A DNA stretch of 64,000 bases from Deltaproteobacteria bacterium (GTDB lineage: Bacteria > Desulfobacterota > GWC2-55-46). The stretch's first letter is position 1. Each line of letters begins with the position of its first letter. The notes beneath the pieces were generated by a model, which worked only from the letters and a program-made list of their open reading frames with translations, was not told where the DNA came from and did no database searches. The position numbers and the translations under genes are program-made. The stretch lies in assembly GCA_020846435.1 (NCBI GenBank), contig JADLDY010000001.1:1-64000 (forward strand), in the 5' to 3' direction. Shown piece after piece: positions 44,264-51,465 of the stretch.

Positions 44264-47200
44264 TCAGTCCCTGAGCCTCCTTCCCTTCCACAGGGCGTAG
44301 ATGGCCGGGAGCACGAGGAGCTCGAGAAGCCCTGAGGTCAGCATTCCTCCGACCATTGGGGCGGCGATTTTTTTCATGACGTCCGCGCCCGTCCCTGTGC
44401 TCCACATTATGGGAAGGAGCCCGAGGATTATGGCGGTGATGGTCATGATCTTGGGGCGCACCCTTGAAACAGACCCTTCCATTATGGCTTCCTTGAGGTC
44501 GGCTTTCGTCTCGAGCCTTCCCTCGGCCTTCCTTTTCGCGAGAGAGAGGTTGAGGTATATGAGCATTATTATGCCCATCTCAGCGTCCAGGCCAGCGAGA
44601 GCTATGAAGCCGACAGCAAACCCTATTGAGAGGTTGTAGCCGAGTATATACATGAGCCAGGCCGCGCCTATGAAAGAGAACGGCACGGCAAGGAGTATGA
44701 TGAGGCACTCGGTCACAGATCTGAAGTTAAGGTACAGGAGAAGGAATATTATGAGGAGCGTCAGCGGCACTATGACCTTGAGCTTGTCAAAGGCCCTTTC
44801 CATGTACTCGTACTGCCCGCTCCACGAGGCGTAGTAGCCGGGAGGGAATTTTACATTCTCTTCTACCGCGGCTTTCGCCTCTTTGACGTATCCGCCTATG
44901 TCAGTGTCCCTGACATCGACGAATATCCATGTGGTAAGCAGGGCGTTCTCCGTCCTTATGGCCGGCGGGCCCATGTTCACTCTGATGTCGGCGACCTGTG
45001 AAAGGGGTATCTGGGCTCCGTTCATCGCGGGGATGAGCACCCGTTCGAGCTTGTCTATGTCGTCCCGGAGCTCCCTCATGTAGCGGACGTTCACGGGATA
45101 GCGCTCGAGCCCCTCGACGGTTGTCGTCACATTCTCTCCGCCAATGGCGGCCATGATGACAGACTGCACGTCCTCGATCTTGAGGCCGTACCTTGCGGCC
45201 TCCTCCCTCTTGATGGAGATATCGAGGTAGTAGCCTCCGCCAGTCCTTTCAGCGTAGGCGCTTGAAGTGCCGGGGAGCTTTTTAACCACGCTCTCGACCT
45301 CGAGCGCGACCCTCTCGAGCTCTTTTAAGTCCTTGCCGAAGACCTTTATCCCGACAGGCGTCCGTATGCCGGTCGACAGCATGTCTATTCTGGCCTTTAT
45401 GGGCATGGTCCAGGCATTGGTCACGCCCGGCATCGAGAGGGCTTCATTCATCTCATCGACGAGGCTTTCCATTGTCACGCCCGGGCGCCACTCGTCTTTC
45501 GGCTTGAGGGTTATTATTGTCTCGAACATCTCGAAAGGAGCCGGGTCGGTCGCCGTCAGAGCCCTGCCTGCCTTGCCGAATACGCTTTCGACCTCGGGGA
45601 AGCCCTTTATTATCCTGTCCTGCGTCTGGAGCATCTCGGAGGCTTTCGTGACCGACACCCCGGGGAGCGTGACCGGCATGTAAAAGAGGGTGCCTTCGTT
45701 CAGGGCCGGCATGAACTCGCTGCCAAGCCTGCTTGCCGGAAAGATACTGACGGCAAGCGCCGCGAGCGCGACGAGTATCGTCGTTTTCTTGTGCCTGAGG
45801 ACTCTTTCGATGGCCGGCCTGTAGAGCCGGATGATGGCTCTTGTGACAGGGTTGTGCTCCTCGGGCCGTATCCTCCCCTTGATTAAAAGGCCCATGAGGA
45901 CCGGCACGAGCGTTATAGAAAGGATTGCGGCCGCGGCCATGGCGAAGGTCTTGGTATATGCGAGCGGACGGAAGAGCTTGCCCTCTTGCGCCTCGAGCGT
46001 GAAGATGGGCATGAACGAGACTGTTATTATGAGGAGCGAGAAGAAAAGCGAAGGGCCGACCTCTTTTGCGGCCCGGCCTACGGCCTCCCACCTGTCCTCT
46101 TTGTCTCCTGCCTTTTCGAGGTGCTTGTGCCCGTTCTCGACCATTATTATCGCGCCGTCTATCATCGCGCCTATTGCTATGGCTATGCCGCCGAGGCTCA
46201 TGATGTTAGCGTTGATGTCCATGAGGCGCATGACGATGAAGGAGGCGAGTATGCCGATTGGCAGCATTATTATGGCGACGAGCGACGACCTGAAGTGCAG
46301 AAGGAATATTACGCAGACGAGGGATACAAGGATGGATTCCTCTATGAGCTTTTCCTTGAGTGTGGCTATTGCCTCGTATATGAGGCCGCTCCTGTCGTAG
46401 ACGGCCCTTACTGTCACGCCTTCCGGCAGTCCGGTCTCGATCTCCTTGAGCTTTTCCTTGACGCCGTTTATGACGTCGAGCGCGTTCTCGCCGAAGCGCA
46501 TGACGACTATGCCGCCGACCGCCTCGCCCTCTCCGTTGAGCTCTGCTATCCCTCTTCTTTCGTCAGGGCCGACCTCCACCCTCGCGACGTCCTTTATGCG
46601 GATGGGCGTGCCTGTGCGGTCTGACCTCAAGACGATGTTCTCTATGTCAGGGACGCTCTTTATGTAGCCGAGGCCCCTTACCATGTACTCGCGCTCGGCC
46701 ATCTCCACGACGCGCCCTCCGACGTCGCTGTTGCTCATCTGGAGGGACTTTACTACTTCATCGATAGATACGCCGTAGGCGGTAAGCCTCCTCGGGTCGA
46801 TGTTCACCTGGTACTGCTTCACGAAGCCGCCTATCGAGGCGACTTCAGATACTCCGGGCACGGATGTGAGCTGGTAGCGGATGAACCAGTCCTGTATGGA
46901 GCGCAGCTGGGCGAGGTCGTAGCCTTCTCCCTCGACCACATACTCGTAGACCCAGCCGACCCCTGTCGCGTCAGGGCCGAGAGTGGGGGAGACGCCTTTG
47001 GGGAGCTTGCCTGAGGCGAAGTTCAGGTACTCCAATACCCTCGAGCGCGCCCAGTAGATGTCGGTTCCGTCTTCGAATATCACATATACGAAGGAGACGC
47101 CGAAGAACGAATAGCCTCTTACGACCTTTGCCCTGGGCACCGAGAGCATGGCCGTCGTAAGCGGGTAGGTTATCTGGTCTTCGACGACCTGCGGGGCCTG

Positions 47201-47365
47201 TCCGGGATATTCGGTGAAGATTATCACCTGCGTGTCAGAGAGGTCCGGGATGGCGTCGACCGGCGTGTTGTAAAGGGCCCATACGCCCCAGCCGCTTATG
47301 AAAAGAGCGGCGAGGATCACGAGGAGCCGGTTTCTTATCGAGAGGTCTATTATCTTCCTGAGCAT
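44264..47365 (-). CDS. cusA: CusA-type heavy-metal RND efflux pump
   Basis: 1033 residues, twelve membrane helices in two halves with two large periplasmic loops, the HME-RND length. The proton-relay segment GAMIDGAIIMVENGH is in helix 4. The porter domain has Met-rich stretches (MPALNEGTLFYMPVTLPG, NAWTMPIKARIDML) placed like the copper/silver-binding methionines of E. coli CusA, favouring Cu(I)/Ag(I) over Zn/Co/Cd. It works with CusB and the TolC-like protein encoded upstream; it overlaps cusB by 1 nt. A related Czc specificity cannot be excluded. Confidence 0.9.
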   Translation of the reverse strand: MLRKIIDLSIRNRLLVILAALFISGWGVWALYNTPVDAIPDLSDTQVIIFTEYPGQAPQVVEDQITYPLTTAMLSVPRAKVVRGYSFFGVSFVYVIFEDGTDIYWARSRVLEYLNFASGKLPKGVSPTLGPDATGVGWVYEYVVEGEGYDLAQLRSIQDWFIRYQLTSVPGVSEVASIGGFVKQYQVNIDPRRLTAYGVSIDEVVKSLQMSNSDVGGRVVEMAEREYMVRGLGYIKSVPDIENIVLRSDRTGTPIRIKDVARVEVGPDERRGIAELNGEGEAVGGIVVMRFGENALDVINGVKEKLKEIETGLPEGVTVRAVYDRSGLIYEAIATLKEKLIEESILVSLVCVIFLLHFRSSLVAIIMLPIGILASFIVMRLMDINANIMSLGGIAIAIGAMIDGAIIMVENGHKHLEKAGDKEDRWEAVGRAAKEVGPSLFFSLLIITVSFMPIFTLEAQEGKLFRPLAYTKTFAMAAAAILSITLVPVLMGLLIKGRIRPEEHNPVTRAIIRLYRPAIERVLRHKKTTILVALAALAVSIFPASRLGSEFMPALNEGTLFYMPVTLPGVSVTKASEMLQTQDRIIKGFPEVESVFGKAGRALTATDPAPFEMFETIITLKPKDEWRPGVTMESLVDEMNEALSMPGVTNAWTMPIKARIDMLSTGIRTPVGIKVFGKDLKELERVALEVESVVKKLPGTSSAYAERTGGGYYLDISIKREEAARYGLKIEDVQSVIMAAIGGENVTTTVEGLERYPVNVRYMRELRDDIDKLERVLIPAMNGAQIPLSQVADIRVNMGPPAIRTENALLTTWIFVDVRDTDIGGYVKEAKAAVEENVKFPPGYYASWSGQYEYMERAFDKLKVIVPLTLLIIFLLLYLNFRSVTECLIILLAVPFSFIGAAWLMYILGYNLSIGFAVGFIALAGLDAEMGIIMLIYLNLSLAKRKAEGRLETKADLKEAIMEGSVSRVRPKIMTITAIILGLLPIMWSTGTGADVMKKIAAPMVGGMLTSGLLELLVLPAIYALWKGRRLRD

Positions 47366-48705
47366 CAGTGCCTGTGCTCCGCTGGCGGCGCTTGAGCCGG
47401 TTCTGGCTCGACGGCGCGGGGTGTTCCCATCGAGCTTGTCGCCGCCTTCAGGTTGGACTCTGAATCTATGAGGAAGCTCGCTGAGGTGACGACCATGTCG
47501 CCTTCATCAAGCCCCTCAGTCACTTCCCAGACGCCTTCTCCCTTGCTTCCGGTTTTTATCTCCCTGGGCTCGAACGTGCCGTCTTGCCTGTCGATTATGA
47601 CCATCTTTCTCGTGCCGGTGTCTATGACGGCTGAATCCGGCACGGCGAGGGCACTTCTGGCGGCGATTACGTCTATCTCTATGTTGAGGTACATGCCGAG
47701 CTTCAAACCGTGGTCCCTGTTGTCGAGGGAGAACCTGACCTTCGCGGTCCTTGACTCGGCAGTCGCTTCCTCGGATGAGTACCTTATAGAGCCGAGGTGC
47801 GTGTATATGTGCTCGACAGGCGCCGTGCGCGCCTTTGAGGGCGAGTACGAAGGCGTGAGAGTAGCCTTCTGCCCGATCTTCACGTATGGCATCTCGTACT
47901 CGTAGACTTCGCCGTAGACCCAGACTTTTGAGTGGTCGATTATCCTGAAGAGGGGCTCTCCCGCTTCGATCTTCTGCCCTTCGACCGCCATCTTTTCAGT
48001 GACCGAGCCTGTCGCCGGCGACCTTATCGCGAGGGTCCTTGAGACTGCCTCTTGTTTTTTTAGCCGCTCTATCTGGTCGCCGGATATGTCCAGGTATTTG
48101 AGCTTCTGGCGGGACGCGTCGAGGAGCGCCCTTCCGCCCTCCCTTGCCTCCGCGAAGGGGCTGTCCTTGACCTTCTCGTTGTTCTCGAAGGCGAGGAGGT
48201 ACTCTTCTTGCGCTGAGACGAGTTCAGGGCTGTAAAGCTCGAAGAGCTTTTCCCCCTTGCCTACCATGGCGTCGGTCCTGCTGACGTAGAGCTTTTCTAT
48301 CCAGCCGGGAACCTTTGTTGTGATGACGTGCGCCATCTCCTCGACAGGCTCGACCCTGCCGACGGTCCTTATCGCGCGCCTGATGTCGCGCCTTTCAACG
48401 GGCTCTGACCTGACGCCGATCTTCTGTATCCTCTCGGGGGTTATCCTCACGGTGCCGGGTTTGTCAAGAGGCGCCGCCTCGTCCTCGTAGACAGGGACGT
48501 AGTCCATGCCCATCTGGTCTTTCATCGGGGAAGGGGAGGTGACTTCAGGGTCCATGGGGTTCCTGTAAAAAAGGACCTTGCGCTCTGTTTTTTCAGCCGC
48601 CTTCTCGACCGGCTCCTTTGACCCGATGAGCCAGACGAGCGTGCCTCCGATCGTGAGCCCTATGAGAAGAAATATCATGCCGGTGATGAAGTTTTTATTT
48701 TTCAT
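47365..48705 (-). CDS. cusB: CusB-type periplasmic adaptor with heavy-metal-binding domain
   Basis: 446 residues. One N-terminal membrane anchor (about 8-27), then a heavy-metal-binding motif YRNPMDPEVTSPSPMKDQMG with several Met residues, then the membrane-fusion core (VGRVEPVEEMAHVITTKVPGWIEKLYV, lipoyl halves, alpha-hairpin, beta-barrel). The C-terminus ends PAEHRH. It bridges CusA and the outer-membrane channel and hands metal to CusA. It overlaps the TolC-like gene by 11 nt. Confidence 0.9.
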   Translation of the reverse strand: MKNKNFITGMIFLLIGLTIGGTLVWLIGSKEPVEKAAEKTERKVLFYRNPMDPEVTSPSPMKDQMGMDYVPVYEDEAAPLDKPGTVRITPERIQKIGVRSEPVERRDIRRAIRTVGRVEPVEEMAHVITTKVPGWIEKLYVSRTDAMVGKGEKLFELYSPELVSAQEEYLLAFENNEKVKDSPFAEAREGGRALLDASRQKLKYLDISGDQIERLKKQEAVSRTLAIRSPATGSVTEKMAVEGQKIEAGEPLFRIIDHSKVWVYGEVYEYEMPYVKIGQKATLTPSYSPSKARTAPVEHIYTHLGSIRYSSEEATAESRTAKVRFSLDNRDHGLKLGMYLNIEIDVIAARSALAVPDSAVIDTGTRKMVIIDRQDGTFEPREIKTGSKGEGVWEVTEGLDEGDMVVTSASFLIDSESNLKAATSSMGTPRAVEPEPAQAPPAEHRH

Positions 48706-49969
48706 CCATGACTCCAGTCAGGAGCTCGACGCCGGAGGCGCGCTCCAGGTCAGCTATCTTCATGTTGTATTCGAAAACAGCCTCGAGATATTCATTGCGC
48801 GTTTTTTTCAAGTTCCGCGCGGTGTCAAGGAGCGCGATCAGGCTCATGCCGCCTGACTTGTAGCTCTTAAGGGCAGTCTCGAACGAGAGCTCTGACTGCG
48901 GCACGAGGGAAGTCTCGAAAAGCTCTATCTGCTTTTGGGCGGCGATCGACTCTATCGCGGCGGCCTTCACCTCAAGGGCTTTCTTGTTCTGTCCGGCTTC
49001 GAGCCTTGCCCGCGCGGCTTTTGCCCGGCCTTTTGCCCCGTCTGAGAGGCTCCGGTACTTGCCCTGCCATATGGGGATGTTGACCTGGAACATCAGGTCA
49101 TAGCTTTCAAAGCGGCCGTCGCGCTGTATGGGCGCGACCCCGACCATGAAGTCAGGGTAATAGTTCTTCTGCGCGAGGGCGGCCGTGAGCTCGCTTGCCT
49201 CGGACTGTGCCTTGAGGCTAATTATGACAGGGGTCGAGGCGAGGGCCGCTTCCATGAGCTTTCGCTCATCGAACGAGGGCCGCCTTTTCGGGAGCTCGGC
49301 TGAGCCTGTAAGCTCTTCAGACTGGTCCATGTTGACGAGAGATTTTATCTCGGCCGCCGCGCCCTCGCGTCTGGCTTCGAGAGTGATGAGCTCGCTTGTG
49401 AGCATCGCCTGCTCGACATTGAGCTTTATCACGTCCTGCTGAGAGGCCTGCCCTGTCGAGTACATCGTGGAGGTGATCCTCGAGGCGTCTGAAATGAGAT
49501 CTTTTACCTCTTTTGTTATGCGGATCGACTCGTCTATGAACGCGTACTCGAAGTAAGCCCCCTTGACCATGGCGATGATGTCGAGCTCGCCTGCTGCTGC
49601 GGACGCCCTCGCGGAGAGCGCCTCTTTTCTCGCGGCCCGCTCCTTGAGCGAGAGCTTTCCAGGGAACGGGAACATCTGGCTTATCGTGTATCTCGTCATC
49701 ATCGCGTTGCCCGGCCCGGCTTCCAGCGGGCGTTTTGTGGAGAGGTCCTCGAGCTCTATCTTCAATGTGGGGTCGTCCAGGCGGCCCTCGGCCCTGGAGG
49801 CGGCCTCAATTGAGCCGGCTTCTTCCCGCATGGCGTCGAGCTCAGGGTTGTTTTTGCGCGCCAGTTCGAGTAGCTCTCTGAGTTCGAGCTTTTCCGTTGC
49901 GAGGGCATGACCGCAAGACAGCGCGAGTACGGTGAGCGCGGCGGCTGTAAGGGTGGCTTTTAACCCCAT
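48695..49969 (-). CDS. TolC/CusC-type outer-membrane efflux channel
   Basis: 424 residues with signal peptide (cleavage near ALA-TE, residue 25). Two OEP repeats of long amphipathic helices (ELLELARKNNPELDAMREEAGSIEAA; ALAQKNYYPDFMVGVAPIQ) define the outer membrane factor family. No lipobox, unlike E. coli CusC. It is the first gene of the efflux operon; GGAAGGGA precedes the ATG and a dyad-bearing promoter lies about 100 nt upstream. Confidence 0.9.
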   Translation of the reverse strand: MGLKATLTAAALTVLALSCGHALATEKLELRELLELARKNNPELDAMREEAGSIEAASRAEGRLDDPTLKIELEDLSTKRPLEAGPGNAMMTRYTISQMFPFPGKLSLKERAARKEALSARASAAAGELDIIAMVKGAYFEYAFIDESIRITKEVKDLISDASRITSTMYSTGQASQQDVIKLNVEQAMLTSELITLEARREGAAAEIKSLVNMDQSEELTGSAELPKRRPSFDERKLMEAALASTPVIISLKAQSEASELTAALAQKNYYPDFMVGVAPIQRDGRFESYDLMFQVNIPIWQGKYRSLSDGAKGRAKAARARLEAGQNKKALEVKAAAIESIAAQKQIELFETSLVPQSELSFETALKSYKSGGMSLIALLDTARNLKKTRNEYLEAVFEYNMKIADLERASGVELLTGVMDEK

Positions 49970-50071
49970 CGATTGTTTCCCTTCCTGGGTATTCTGTAAG
50001 ACGGCCGGGATATTGGAACTATATCTGCCGCTTCTGGCCGTGTCCAGAGCGGCCGAGATGAGGGCGTCTTG

Positions 50072-50100
50072 TTTCTACTGATTGTAGAATTTTTGCTCAA
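50072..50100 (-). promoter_or_regulatory. Promoter of the efflux operon with embedded BlaI-type operator
   Basis: Minus-strand TTGAGC (50095-50100), 17-bp spacer, TAGAAA (50072-50077). A perfect dyad TTCTAC-AATCA-GTAGAA occupies 50073-50089, covering the spacer and the -10. The same 17-bp pattern fills the spacer of the blaI promoter. A repressor bound here would block RNA polymerase. Confidence 0.65.
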
Positions 50101-50107
50101 AAAAATA

Positions 50108-50998
50108 TCAGTGGTGATGGACCTGCCTGGCCGCGCAATGCTCTTTGCAGCCCTTCACGATGTTGACATGCGCCTCGCATTTCTTGAGCGAGCACTCATG
50201 CGCCTGAGGCGCGGCGTAGATCGGCATTGAAAGGGCGAGGAGCAGAGCCCCCGACAGGGCGAGGCTCACGCCGAGAGCCTTCGCGGGCACCCTGGGCCGG
50301 GCCTCTTGTCCTTCAAGGAGCCTTCTGACTCTGCCCGTTACCTGCTCTGTGTTATCCGCGAGCGCCGCGTAGAGCGCGCCTTCCTTCGCGACCTTTATCA
50401 TGGCCGACGCGAGGCTCAGCGGCTCCCCGAGGCTCGATACGGCCGCGTCGTCAGCTTCATGCTCTTTTTTGAGGCGGGCGAAAGAGGCCAGATGCTTTAT
50501 GGCGGGCAGATAGAAGAAGGCGTCCTTAATGAAGCCGATGAGGAGGAACCTCAAAGGGTCAAAGCCTCTCTTGTGCCTGAGCTCGTGGAAAAAGACCGCC
50601 CTGAGCTCGTCTTTTTCAAGGCCTCTCAAGAGGCCGGTCGAGATGTATATTCTGGGTTTCAGGAGGCCGAAGGTAAAGGCCGTCTTCAGGTAAGGGTCGA
50701 TTATGAGGGCGACGCTTCCGCCGATGCGCTTTATTGGCAGGGATGAGAGTGCTCTTCTGGCCGCGAGGATATTCTTTATCGCCCTGAACGAGGCGTAAAG
50801 CAGCCCGCCGGAGAGGAGGAGGCCGCCTGACCAGAAGAAAAAGAGCTTGGCTACGGCCGCGAGCTCGACGCACCTTACAAGGAGCGTCTGGCATGCTTCA
50901 AGGGCGCCTGTCGTGAGCGTGAGCACTGAAGGGAAGGCGTAAGCGGCCAATACGGCCGGGACTATGATCAGGGCAAGGAGGATGGCCGGGAAGGTCAT
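50108..50998 (-). CDS. M56-family (BlaR1-like) membrane metalloprotease with Cys/His-rich tail
   Basis: 296 residues. Hydrophobic helices at about 3-21 and 52-71, zinc motif HELRH at 138-142 with EHEAD near 179-183, a further helix about 151-168 and a last helix about 243-262. This is the M56 protease core of BlaR1/MecR1, which on signal leads to loss of the BlaI repressor. The penicillin-binding sensor domain is absent. Instead a 33-residue tail after the last helix has four Cys and six His (HEC, KKC, EAH, KGC, EHC, final HHH). I infer a periplasmic metal sensor. blaI overlaps by 4 nt upstream; the copper-type efflux operon follows. Confidence 0.85.
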   Translation of the reverse strand: MTFPAILLALIIVPAVLAAYAFPSVLTLTTGALEACQTLLVRCVELAAVAKLFFFWSGGLLLSGGLLYASFRAIKNILAARRALSSLPIKRIGGSVALIIDPYLKTAFTFGLLKPRIYISTGLLRGLEKDELRAVFFHELRHKRGFDPLRFLLIGFIKDAFFYLPAIKHLASFARLKKEHEADDAAVSSLGEPLSLASAMIKVAKEGALYAALADNTEQVTGRVRRLLEGQEARPRVPAKALGVSLALSGALLLALSMPIYAAPQAHECSLKKCEAHVNIVKGCKEHCAARQVHHH

Positions 50999-51411
50999 TT
51001 TTTAGCCTCCAGCTCTTTTTTCTTGGACTCTATGAGCGCTGAGAGTTTTTCCAGCTCCCCGGGGTCTGAGGCGGCCAAAGTGTCGACGAACGAGGCAAGA
51101 AGGCCGCTCGAGGAGATGCCGAGTATGCCCTTGAAGACGTCCTGTGAGACGGTCCTGGCAAACTCTTCCTTTGAAAGGGCCGGGGAGAAGGCGATGAGGC
51201 TGGCGCCCTTTTCCTTCCTGACGAGCCCCTTTTTCGCGAGCCTTTCAAGGACGGTAAGGACGGTAGTGAGAGCGATGTCCCGGCCCGAGTTCATGCCGGA
51301 GAAGACGTCCCTGCCGCTTGAAGCGCCTGATGCCCAGAGGAACTCCATTACTTCCAGCTCCAGCGGGCCAAGGGGGCTTGAATATGTAGCAAGCCTTGAT
51401 TTTCTTGGCAT
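50995..51411 (-). CDS. BlaI/MecI/CopY-family transcriptional repressor
   Basis: 138 residues from the ATG at 51411, which follows AAGAGG. The winged-helix core is clear: LGPLELEVMEFLWASGASSGRDVFSGM, then TTVLTVLERLAKKGLVRKEK. The C-terminal helices serve dimerisation. The family includes BlaI and MecI (beta-lactam response) and CopY (copper). No C-terminal CxC pairs of CopY are present, so it is unlikely to sense metal itself; the M56 partner may do so. Its promoter contains a dyad also found before the efflux operon, implying autoregulation. Confidence 0.9.
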   Translation of the reverse strand: MPRKSRLATYSSPLGPLELEVMEFLWASGASSGRDVFSGMNSGRDIALTTVLTVLERLAKKGLVRKEKGASLIAFSPALSKEEFARTVSQDVFKGILGISSSGLLASFVDTLAASDPGELEKLSALIESKKKELEAKK

Positions 51412-51436
51412 AAGCCTCTTCCGAAAATTCCCTTTT

Positions 51437-51465
51437 ATTGTATTCGACATTGTGTAGAAAGTCAA
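51437..51465 (-). promoter_or_regulatory. blaI promoter with embedded dyad operator
   Basis: Minus-strand TTGACT (51460-51465), 17-bp spacer, TACAAT (51437-51442). The spacer is exactly TTCTAC-ACAAT-GTCGAA, one mismatch from a perfect 6+5+6 dyad and the same pattern as at 50073-50089. Confidence 0.75.

Follow-up and report, generated by a model that had tools for sequence, protein, structure and literature searches.

What binds the two 17-bp dyads that precede a blaI-type gene and a metal-efflux operon in a deltaproteobacterial genome, and what would release the bound regulator? The dyads lie in a window of 64,000 nt (the whole stretch of DNA that was analysed; Deltaproteobacteria bacterium, GCA_020846435.1, contig JADLDY010000001.1, positions 1-64,000 of the forward strand). 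The quite likely reading is that they are operators at which BlaI represses both its own blaI-M56 unit and a TolC-CusB-CusA pump, and that a metal triggers release through the M56 protease. The name blaI should not suggest beta-lactams at this locus; neither a beta-lactamase gene nor a penicillin sensor was found in it.

Position of the dyads in the window

The features fall on the minus strand in the order operator 1, blaI (51411-50995), M56 (50998-50108), operator 2, tolC (49969-48695), cusB (48705-47365), and cusA (47365-44264).

51460..51465, minus strand: -35 element TTGACT of the blaI promoter (promoter scan and comparison of the locus set)
51443..51459, minus strand: operator 1 (predicted) in the blaI promoter, TTCTACACAATGTCGAA, asymmetric right arm; exact match
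51437..51442, minus strand: -10 element TACAAT of the blaI promoter (promoter scan and comparison of the locus set)
50995..51411, minus strand: blaI-type repressor gene, 138 aa; ATG at 51411, preceded by GGAAGAGG; PF03965 E=1.9e-22
50108..50998, minus strand: M56 (BlaR1-like) membrane zinc protease, 296 aa; PF05569 E=1.4e-11
50111..50200, minus strand: C-terminal Cys/His tail HECSLKKCEAHVNIVKGCKEHCAARQVHHH, proposed metal sensor, after the last TM helix (residue conservation)
50072..50100, minus strand: candidate weak promoter TTGAGC-N17-TAGAAA, read from the sequence and absent from the consensus scan list
50073..50089, minus strand: operator 2 (predicted) of the pump operon, TTCTACAATCAGTAGAA, symmetric (TTCTACTGATTGTAGAA on the plus strand); exact match
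48695..49969, minus strand: TolC-type outer-membrane channel; PF02321 E=4.3e-38
47365..48705, minus strand: CusB-type periplasmic adaptor; PF16576 E=4.6e-62
44264..47365, minus strand: CusA/CzcA heavy-metal RND pump; TIGR00914 1279 bits, cut-off 701

The letters at 50073-50089 and 51443-51459 are exactly those given in the preliminary description, and the dyad consensus is better written as TTCTACa-N3-tGTAGAA. The same description had both dyads overlapping the -35/-10 region of a promoter. This stands on the blaI side, where operator 1 is the exact 17-bp spacer between TTGACT (51465-51460) and TACAAT (51442-51437). On the efflux side, the dyad is not clearly within a spacer. Operator 2 starts ~18 bp past the M56 stop codon. 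A weak candidate promoter, TTGAGC-N17-TAGAAA (50100-50072), shares part of its spacer and of its -10 with this dyad, the -10 overlapping the right arm. The efflux-side promoter is less certain than was stated because the promoter scan omitted this candidate and listed another match, TGGACA-N17-TATAGT (50046-50018), downstream of operator 2.

The interval 49970-50072 differs from that of the nearest relatives. In them, tolC follows a small first gene without a Pfam match; the window lacks this gene and keeps a 100-bp leader with TGGACA-N17-TATAGT. In other words, the leader is longer in the window because the small first gene of related operons is missing.

Distribution of the dyad in the genome and in relatives

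The genome comprises 2,402,616 bases in 88 contigs. The genome-wide scan that had been proposed for TTCTAC-N5-GTMGAA returned six exact places in 2.40 Mb, all beside metal-handling genes, against ~0.17 expected from the base composition of the window. Thus, the dyad is far more frequent than chance. A whole-genome scan with variable spacing (TTCTAC-N{0..16}-GTAGAA) found five places, all with N5, and zero at the 16 other spacers. Sites with one mismatch were rejected as noise (18/18 against 22/27 for a backwards control pattern across the whole genome).

Two of the six exact sites are those of the window, two surround a second blaI gene (blaI2) on contig C2, and two are on contig C74. On C2, one dyad precedes blaI2 and the other precedes a small protein followed by tolC-cusB-cusA. 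On C74, one dyad precedes a 135-aa protein with CMVNDTYMNKPQIPV...YYGCCEGC and the other a short ORF rich in His; genes for a YHS-domain protein and a heavy-metal P-type ATPase are close by. The dyad forms the promoter spacer at three sites, as CTTGACT-dyad-TACAAT at the window blaI and as CTTGACA-dyad-TATTAT at blaI2 and at the first C74 site. The regulon would therefore be larger than two units, with at least the second pump operon and the periplasmic cysteine-protein locus as predicted members. The small periplasmic-type protein with CMVND...YYGCCEGC, a third target, is encoded at L013:5605-6012, a copy that has no Pfam or NCBIfam match, and is under a TTGAC[AT]-dyad promoter at three loci in other genomes too (L035, L036, and L048).

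Only two PF03965 genes are present in the genome, the window blaI and blaI2. A dyad precedes each of them, and a further dyad precedes the TolC-CusB-CusA pump operon that adjoins each. It had been proposed that one repressor controls both units of the window. The whole-genome scan and footprinting across 59 relatives give strong support to a single specificity for both; the count of one repressor does not hold, as the second BlaI (55% identical) has the same boxes, and the two repressors probably share this specificity. There is no M56 gene adjacent to blaI2. The window M56 may act in trans on BlaI2 because it is the only good M56 match in the genome.

The comparison set consisted of 59 genomes, i.e. 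this one and its relatives, 47 of which encode a close BlaI; their loci were fetched and oriented. The N5 dyad was found upstream of blaI, in the region of its own promoter, in 47 of 53 loci. Canonical TACANNTGTA boxes (CopY-type KACA-NN-TGTM) occurred in 0/53 blaI upstream regions, and a canonical operator at these promoters was accordingly rejected. When near-variants are included, 49/50 dyads at blaI promoters abut TTGAC[AT] upstream and 50/50 abut TANNNT downstream, so that across relatives the dyad fills the 17-bp gap between the two elements. Genomes with blaI carry 2.06 symmetric dyads each vs 0.33 in genomes without it (P=1.3e-5, which overstates significance as relatives are not independent and serves as a guide only). 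A reversed control pattern showed no difference between the two groups. Throughout a whole bacterial class, these genes are accompanied by matching boxes.

A second dyad is present at the M56/pump junction in 36 loci with N5, plus two with N4, and most of the 36 have a T-tract and TTG at a fixed distance upstream. In 20/36 loci, operator 2 lies directly upstream of the RBS of the first pump-operon gene, within 32 bp of the Shine-Dalgarno sequence and start codon. Because of this proximity, a -10 element formed by the right arm would leave hardly any leader. The pump transcript may begin upstream, with BlaI acting as a roadblock to read-through, or it may start very close to the codon. The two positions also differ in letters. 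A GTCGAA right arm occurs at 27/50 blaI promoters vs 0/36 pump sites (P=8e-9, again only a guide, and mostly from one taxonomic family). The asymmetric own site may be the weaker one, in which case the repressor and protease genes would be released first.

M56 is not next to blaI in every locus; in G007 and G010, where it is not, an M56 with a Cys4His2 (C4H2) tail sits elsewhere. Two blaI loci of this kind carry two tandem dyads 28 bp apart (L100:138-182 and L102:4333-4377). Another locus has two identical copies of the dyad 2.8 kb apart (L108:7341 and 4499).

Half-site spacing and the BlaI repressors

The window BlaI matches PF03965 (Penicillinase_R) over profile positions 1-114/115 with 80 bits vs a cut-off of 22.6, and MecI/BlaI structures match it by sequence. 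It matches the CopY_TcrY model (TIGR02698, 51 bits vs 122) and the BlaI model below their cut-offs. The half-sites had been described as BlaI/CopY-like but one base further apart, and both the whole-genome scan and the footprinting in relatives strongly support this. In BlaI/CopY operators, TAC and GTA are four bases apart, and the CopY/CopR consensus is RNYKACANNYGTMRNY (PMC7253601).

How is the spacing read? Three divergent BlaI proteins (L121, L125, and L126) form one clade (support 93/99), and each has TTCTAC-N4-GTAGAA at its own promoter. The site that follows M56 likewise has N4 at L125 and L126. The genomes concerned (G033, G031, and G032) carry an N5 BlaI as well, i.e. three genomes have both versions. 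N4 and N5 BlaI have identical recognition helices (A-x-TTVLTVLERL, nearly invariant); therefore, spacing would be read by dimer geometry. The M56 partner of the N4 clade has a different tail, CNHxYCLS...CPSD..C...C. In L126, TolC and a CusB-like adaptor that bears a CPMHP/CPICNM metal motif are encoded in the operon as well. A distant BlaI within the phylum (L146) has N4 boxes, so the 4-bp spacing may be ancestral. In G053, a divergent BlaI (L129) has TACTAC-N5-GTAGTA at its promoter, with different flanking letters and the same spacing.

The M56 protease and the proposed signal

The window M56 protein scores 44.5 bits against PF05569 (cut-off 31). Its HExxH (H138, E139, and H142), E179xxxD183, and R223 are invariant in 42 sequences. 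BlaR1 relies on HExxH, ExxxD, and an arginine (PMC9834060), and R223 is probably the equivalent of that arginine. Pfam found no penicillin-binding sensor domain in the 296 aa, and NF000326 gave 25 bits vs a cut-off of 400. At the position of BlaR1's penicillin sensor stands a C4H2 tail of ~30 residues. Among ~40 related sequences, C269 and C288 are invariant and C274, H277, C284, and H287 are at least 90% conserved, with degenerate tails in a few (L094, L115, and L117). The loop between the first two TM helices contains an invariant C43 and a nearly invariant C36, and by position it corresponds to the signal-transmitting BlaR1 loop EL1. Arg/Lys-rich stretches on the protease side suggest, by the positive-inside rule, that the tail is in the periplasm. 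The basis for this topology is hydropathy, charge, and the likeness to BlaR1; an AlphaFold model of the M56 protein (four sequences) had a mean pLDDT of 37 and no usable fold.

The sites, their conservation, their co-occurrence with blaI, and the conserved protease motifs and tail are observed directly. From them we infer BlaI binding, cleavage, the identity of the metal, and the topology, as follows. Dimeric BlaI on the operators would hold down its own gene, the M56 gene, and the downstream TolC-CusB-CusA pump. RNA polymerase would be excluded from the blaI promoter because bound BlaI would span the full -35/-10 spacer. Induction would be BlaR1-like, with the M56 zinc-protease site facing the cytoplasm and sensing by the short periplasmic tail together with the two loop cysteines. 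Metal bound there, most likely Cu(I)/Ag(I) as judged from the pump type, would activate the protease; BlaI would be cut, and the pump and signalling genes would be released. Export of the metal by the pump would then close the loop. The parts of this mechanism differ in strength. The dyads are almost certainly operators of BlaI, as predicted from sequence, and BlaI very probably controls both units. Release of the repressor through M56 cleavage, by analogy with BlaR1, is likely, and metal as the signal, acting through the tail, is somewhat favoured. Three observations count against the whole: operator 2 lies beside the RBS in 20/36 loci, some blaI loci are without M56, and some tails are degenerate. 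More tentatively, and with the odds rather against it, metal may bridge C36/C43 of the loop and the C4H2 tail to switch the protease on, and coexisting modules may share half-sites at 5- vs 4-bp spacing with their own Cys tails, such that one base pair insulates two metal pathways.

Could the dyads work without BlaI? The second dyad could act as an RNA hairpin in a blaI-M56-pump transcript and control translation of the pump. This dyad is located past the M56 stop codon and before the RBS, at most 32 bp from the start codon in 20/36 loci, and a 6-bp stem is possible. However, the same arm letters occur at the blaI promoter, upstream of the expected transcription start. A hairpin needs pairing and not fixed letters, whereas loci found by the exact-arm pattern search outnumber near-variants, and at both sites the spacing goes with the clade of BlaI, making a hairpin highly improbable. 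It is extremely improbable that a regulator other than BlaI binds the dyads. Binding by BlaI is so far a prediction, which leaves room for another protein, but the dyads follow the presence of blaI across genomes, the half-sites match BlaI/CopY boxes, and different BlaI clades go with different spacer lengths under a nearly invariant recognition helix.

Other alternatives accept BlaI and concern its signal. CopY, a family relative, is released by binding metal directly (PMC7253601), and the second blaI locus has no adjacent M56, as would be expected if M56 were a bystander. The window BlaI, however, has neither Cys nor His in its 138 aa and lacks the C-terminal CxC motifs of CopY, so direct metal sensing by this protein was rejected. 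Most loci have M56 next to blaI, and G007 and G010 have a tailed M56 elsewhere; direct release is thus very unlikely. A sensor-poor BlaR1 that responds to beta-lactams or cell-wall stress, alongside a pump that exports drugs, would agree with family membership and with the M. tuberculosis BlaR1 homologue, which is without the sensor domain yet beta-lactam-linked (PMC9834060). Against this stand the CusA/CzcA heavy-metal type of the pump (TIGR00914), the other sites at YHS and P-type ATPase loci, a locus free of beta-lactamase, and a tail rich in Cys and His. A beta-lactam signal is therefore about as improbable as the hairpin.

The beta-lactam switch BlaI/MecI-BlaR1/MecR1 of Staphylococcus and Bacillus, one of the closest known systems, shares with the window module the BlaI-fold repressor, the dyad at its own promoter and at the target, an M56 protease of the gluzincin type that bears HExxH and ExxxD, and the two-gene repressor-protease unit. 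In contrast, here a C4H2 tail replaces the penicillin-binding sensor, the target is a heavy-metal RND pump, and the TAC/GTA half-sites are five and not four apart. CopY/CopR of Enterococcus and Streptococcus share the PF03965 family, metal-efflux targets, and similar TACA/TGTA half-sites, but here the C-terminal CxC is missing, a membrane protease partner is present, and the spacing is one base wider. The 5-bp spacing is not unique. Clostridium thermocellum BlaI_0696 has GTCTAT inverted repeats five nt apart, which its authors link to beta-lactam response genes (PMC8457756); it is a precedent for the spacing with a different half-site. The operons of Shewanella pNi1-3 and Glaciecola pGLAAG01 likewise have the order blaI-M56-tolC-cusB-cusA, one dyad upstream of blaI, a near copy of it downstream of M56, and arms five apart (AAACCGAT-N5-ATCGGTTT); their half-site is unrelated and their M56 is without the Cys/His tail. 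Thus, BlaI/CopY boxes four apart, the five-apart boxes of BlaI_0696, and BlaI-M56-Cus plasmid operons are already known. No earlier description was found of the C4H2 tail or of a two-spacing pair of modules, nor of a metal-sensing BlaR1/M56 in the open-access literature.

M56 proteases without the penicillin sensor, such as the M. tuberculosis homologue, were known before, and what signal they respond to is a question that can be addressed here. With its conserved C4H2 tail, its metal pump, and operators that are clean, the module makes the answer directly testable for one large group. Likewise, the coexisting 4-bp and 5-bp systems are a natural test of how a winged-helix dimer reads spacing while the recognition helix is constant. 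A third spacing occurs on a Priestia megaterium plasmid (L194), where copper-binding and P-type ATPase genes stand next to a BlaI-M56 pair that is followed by TACTAC-N6-GTAGTA dyads.
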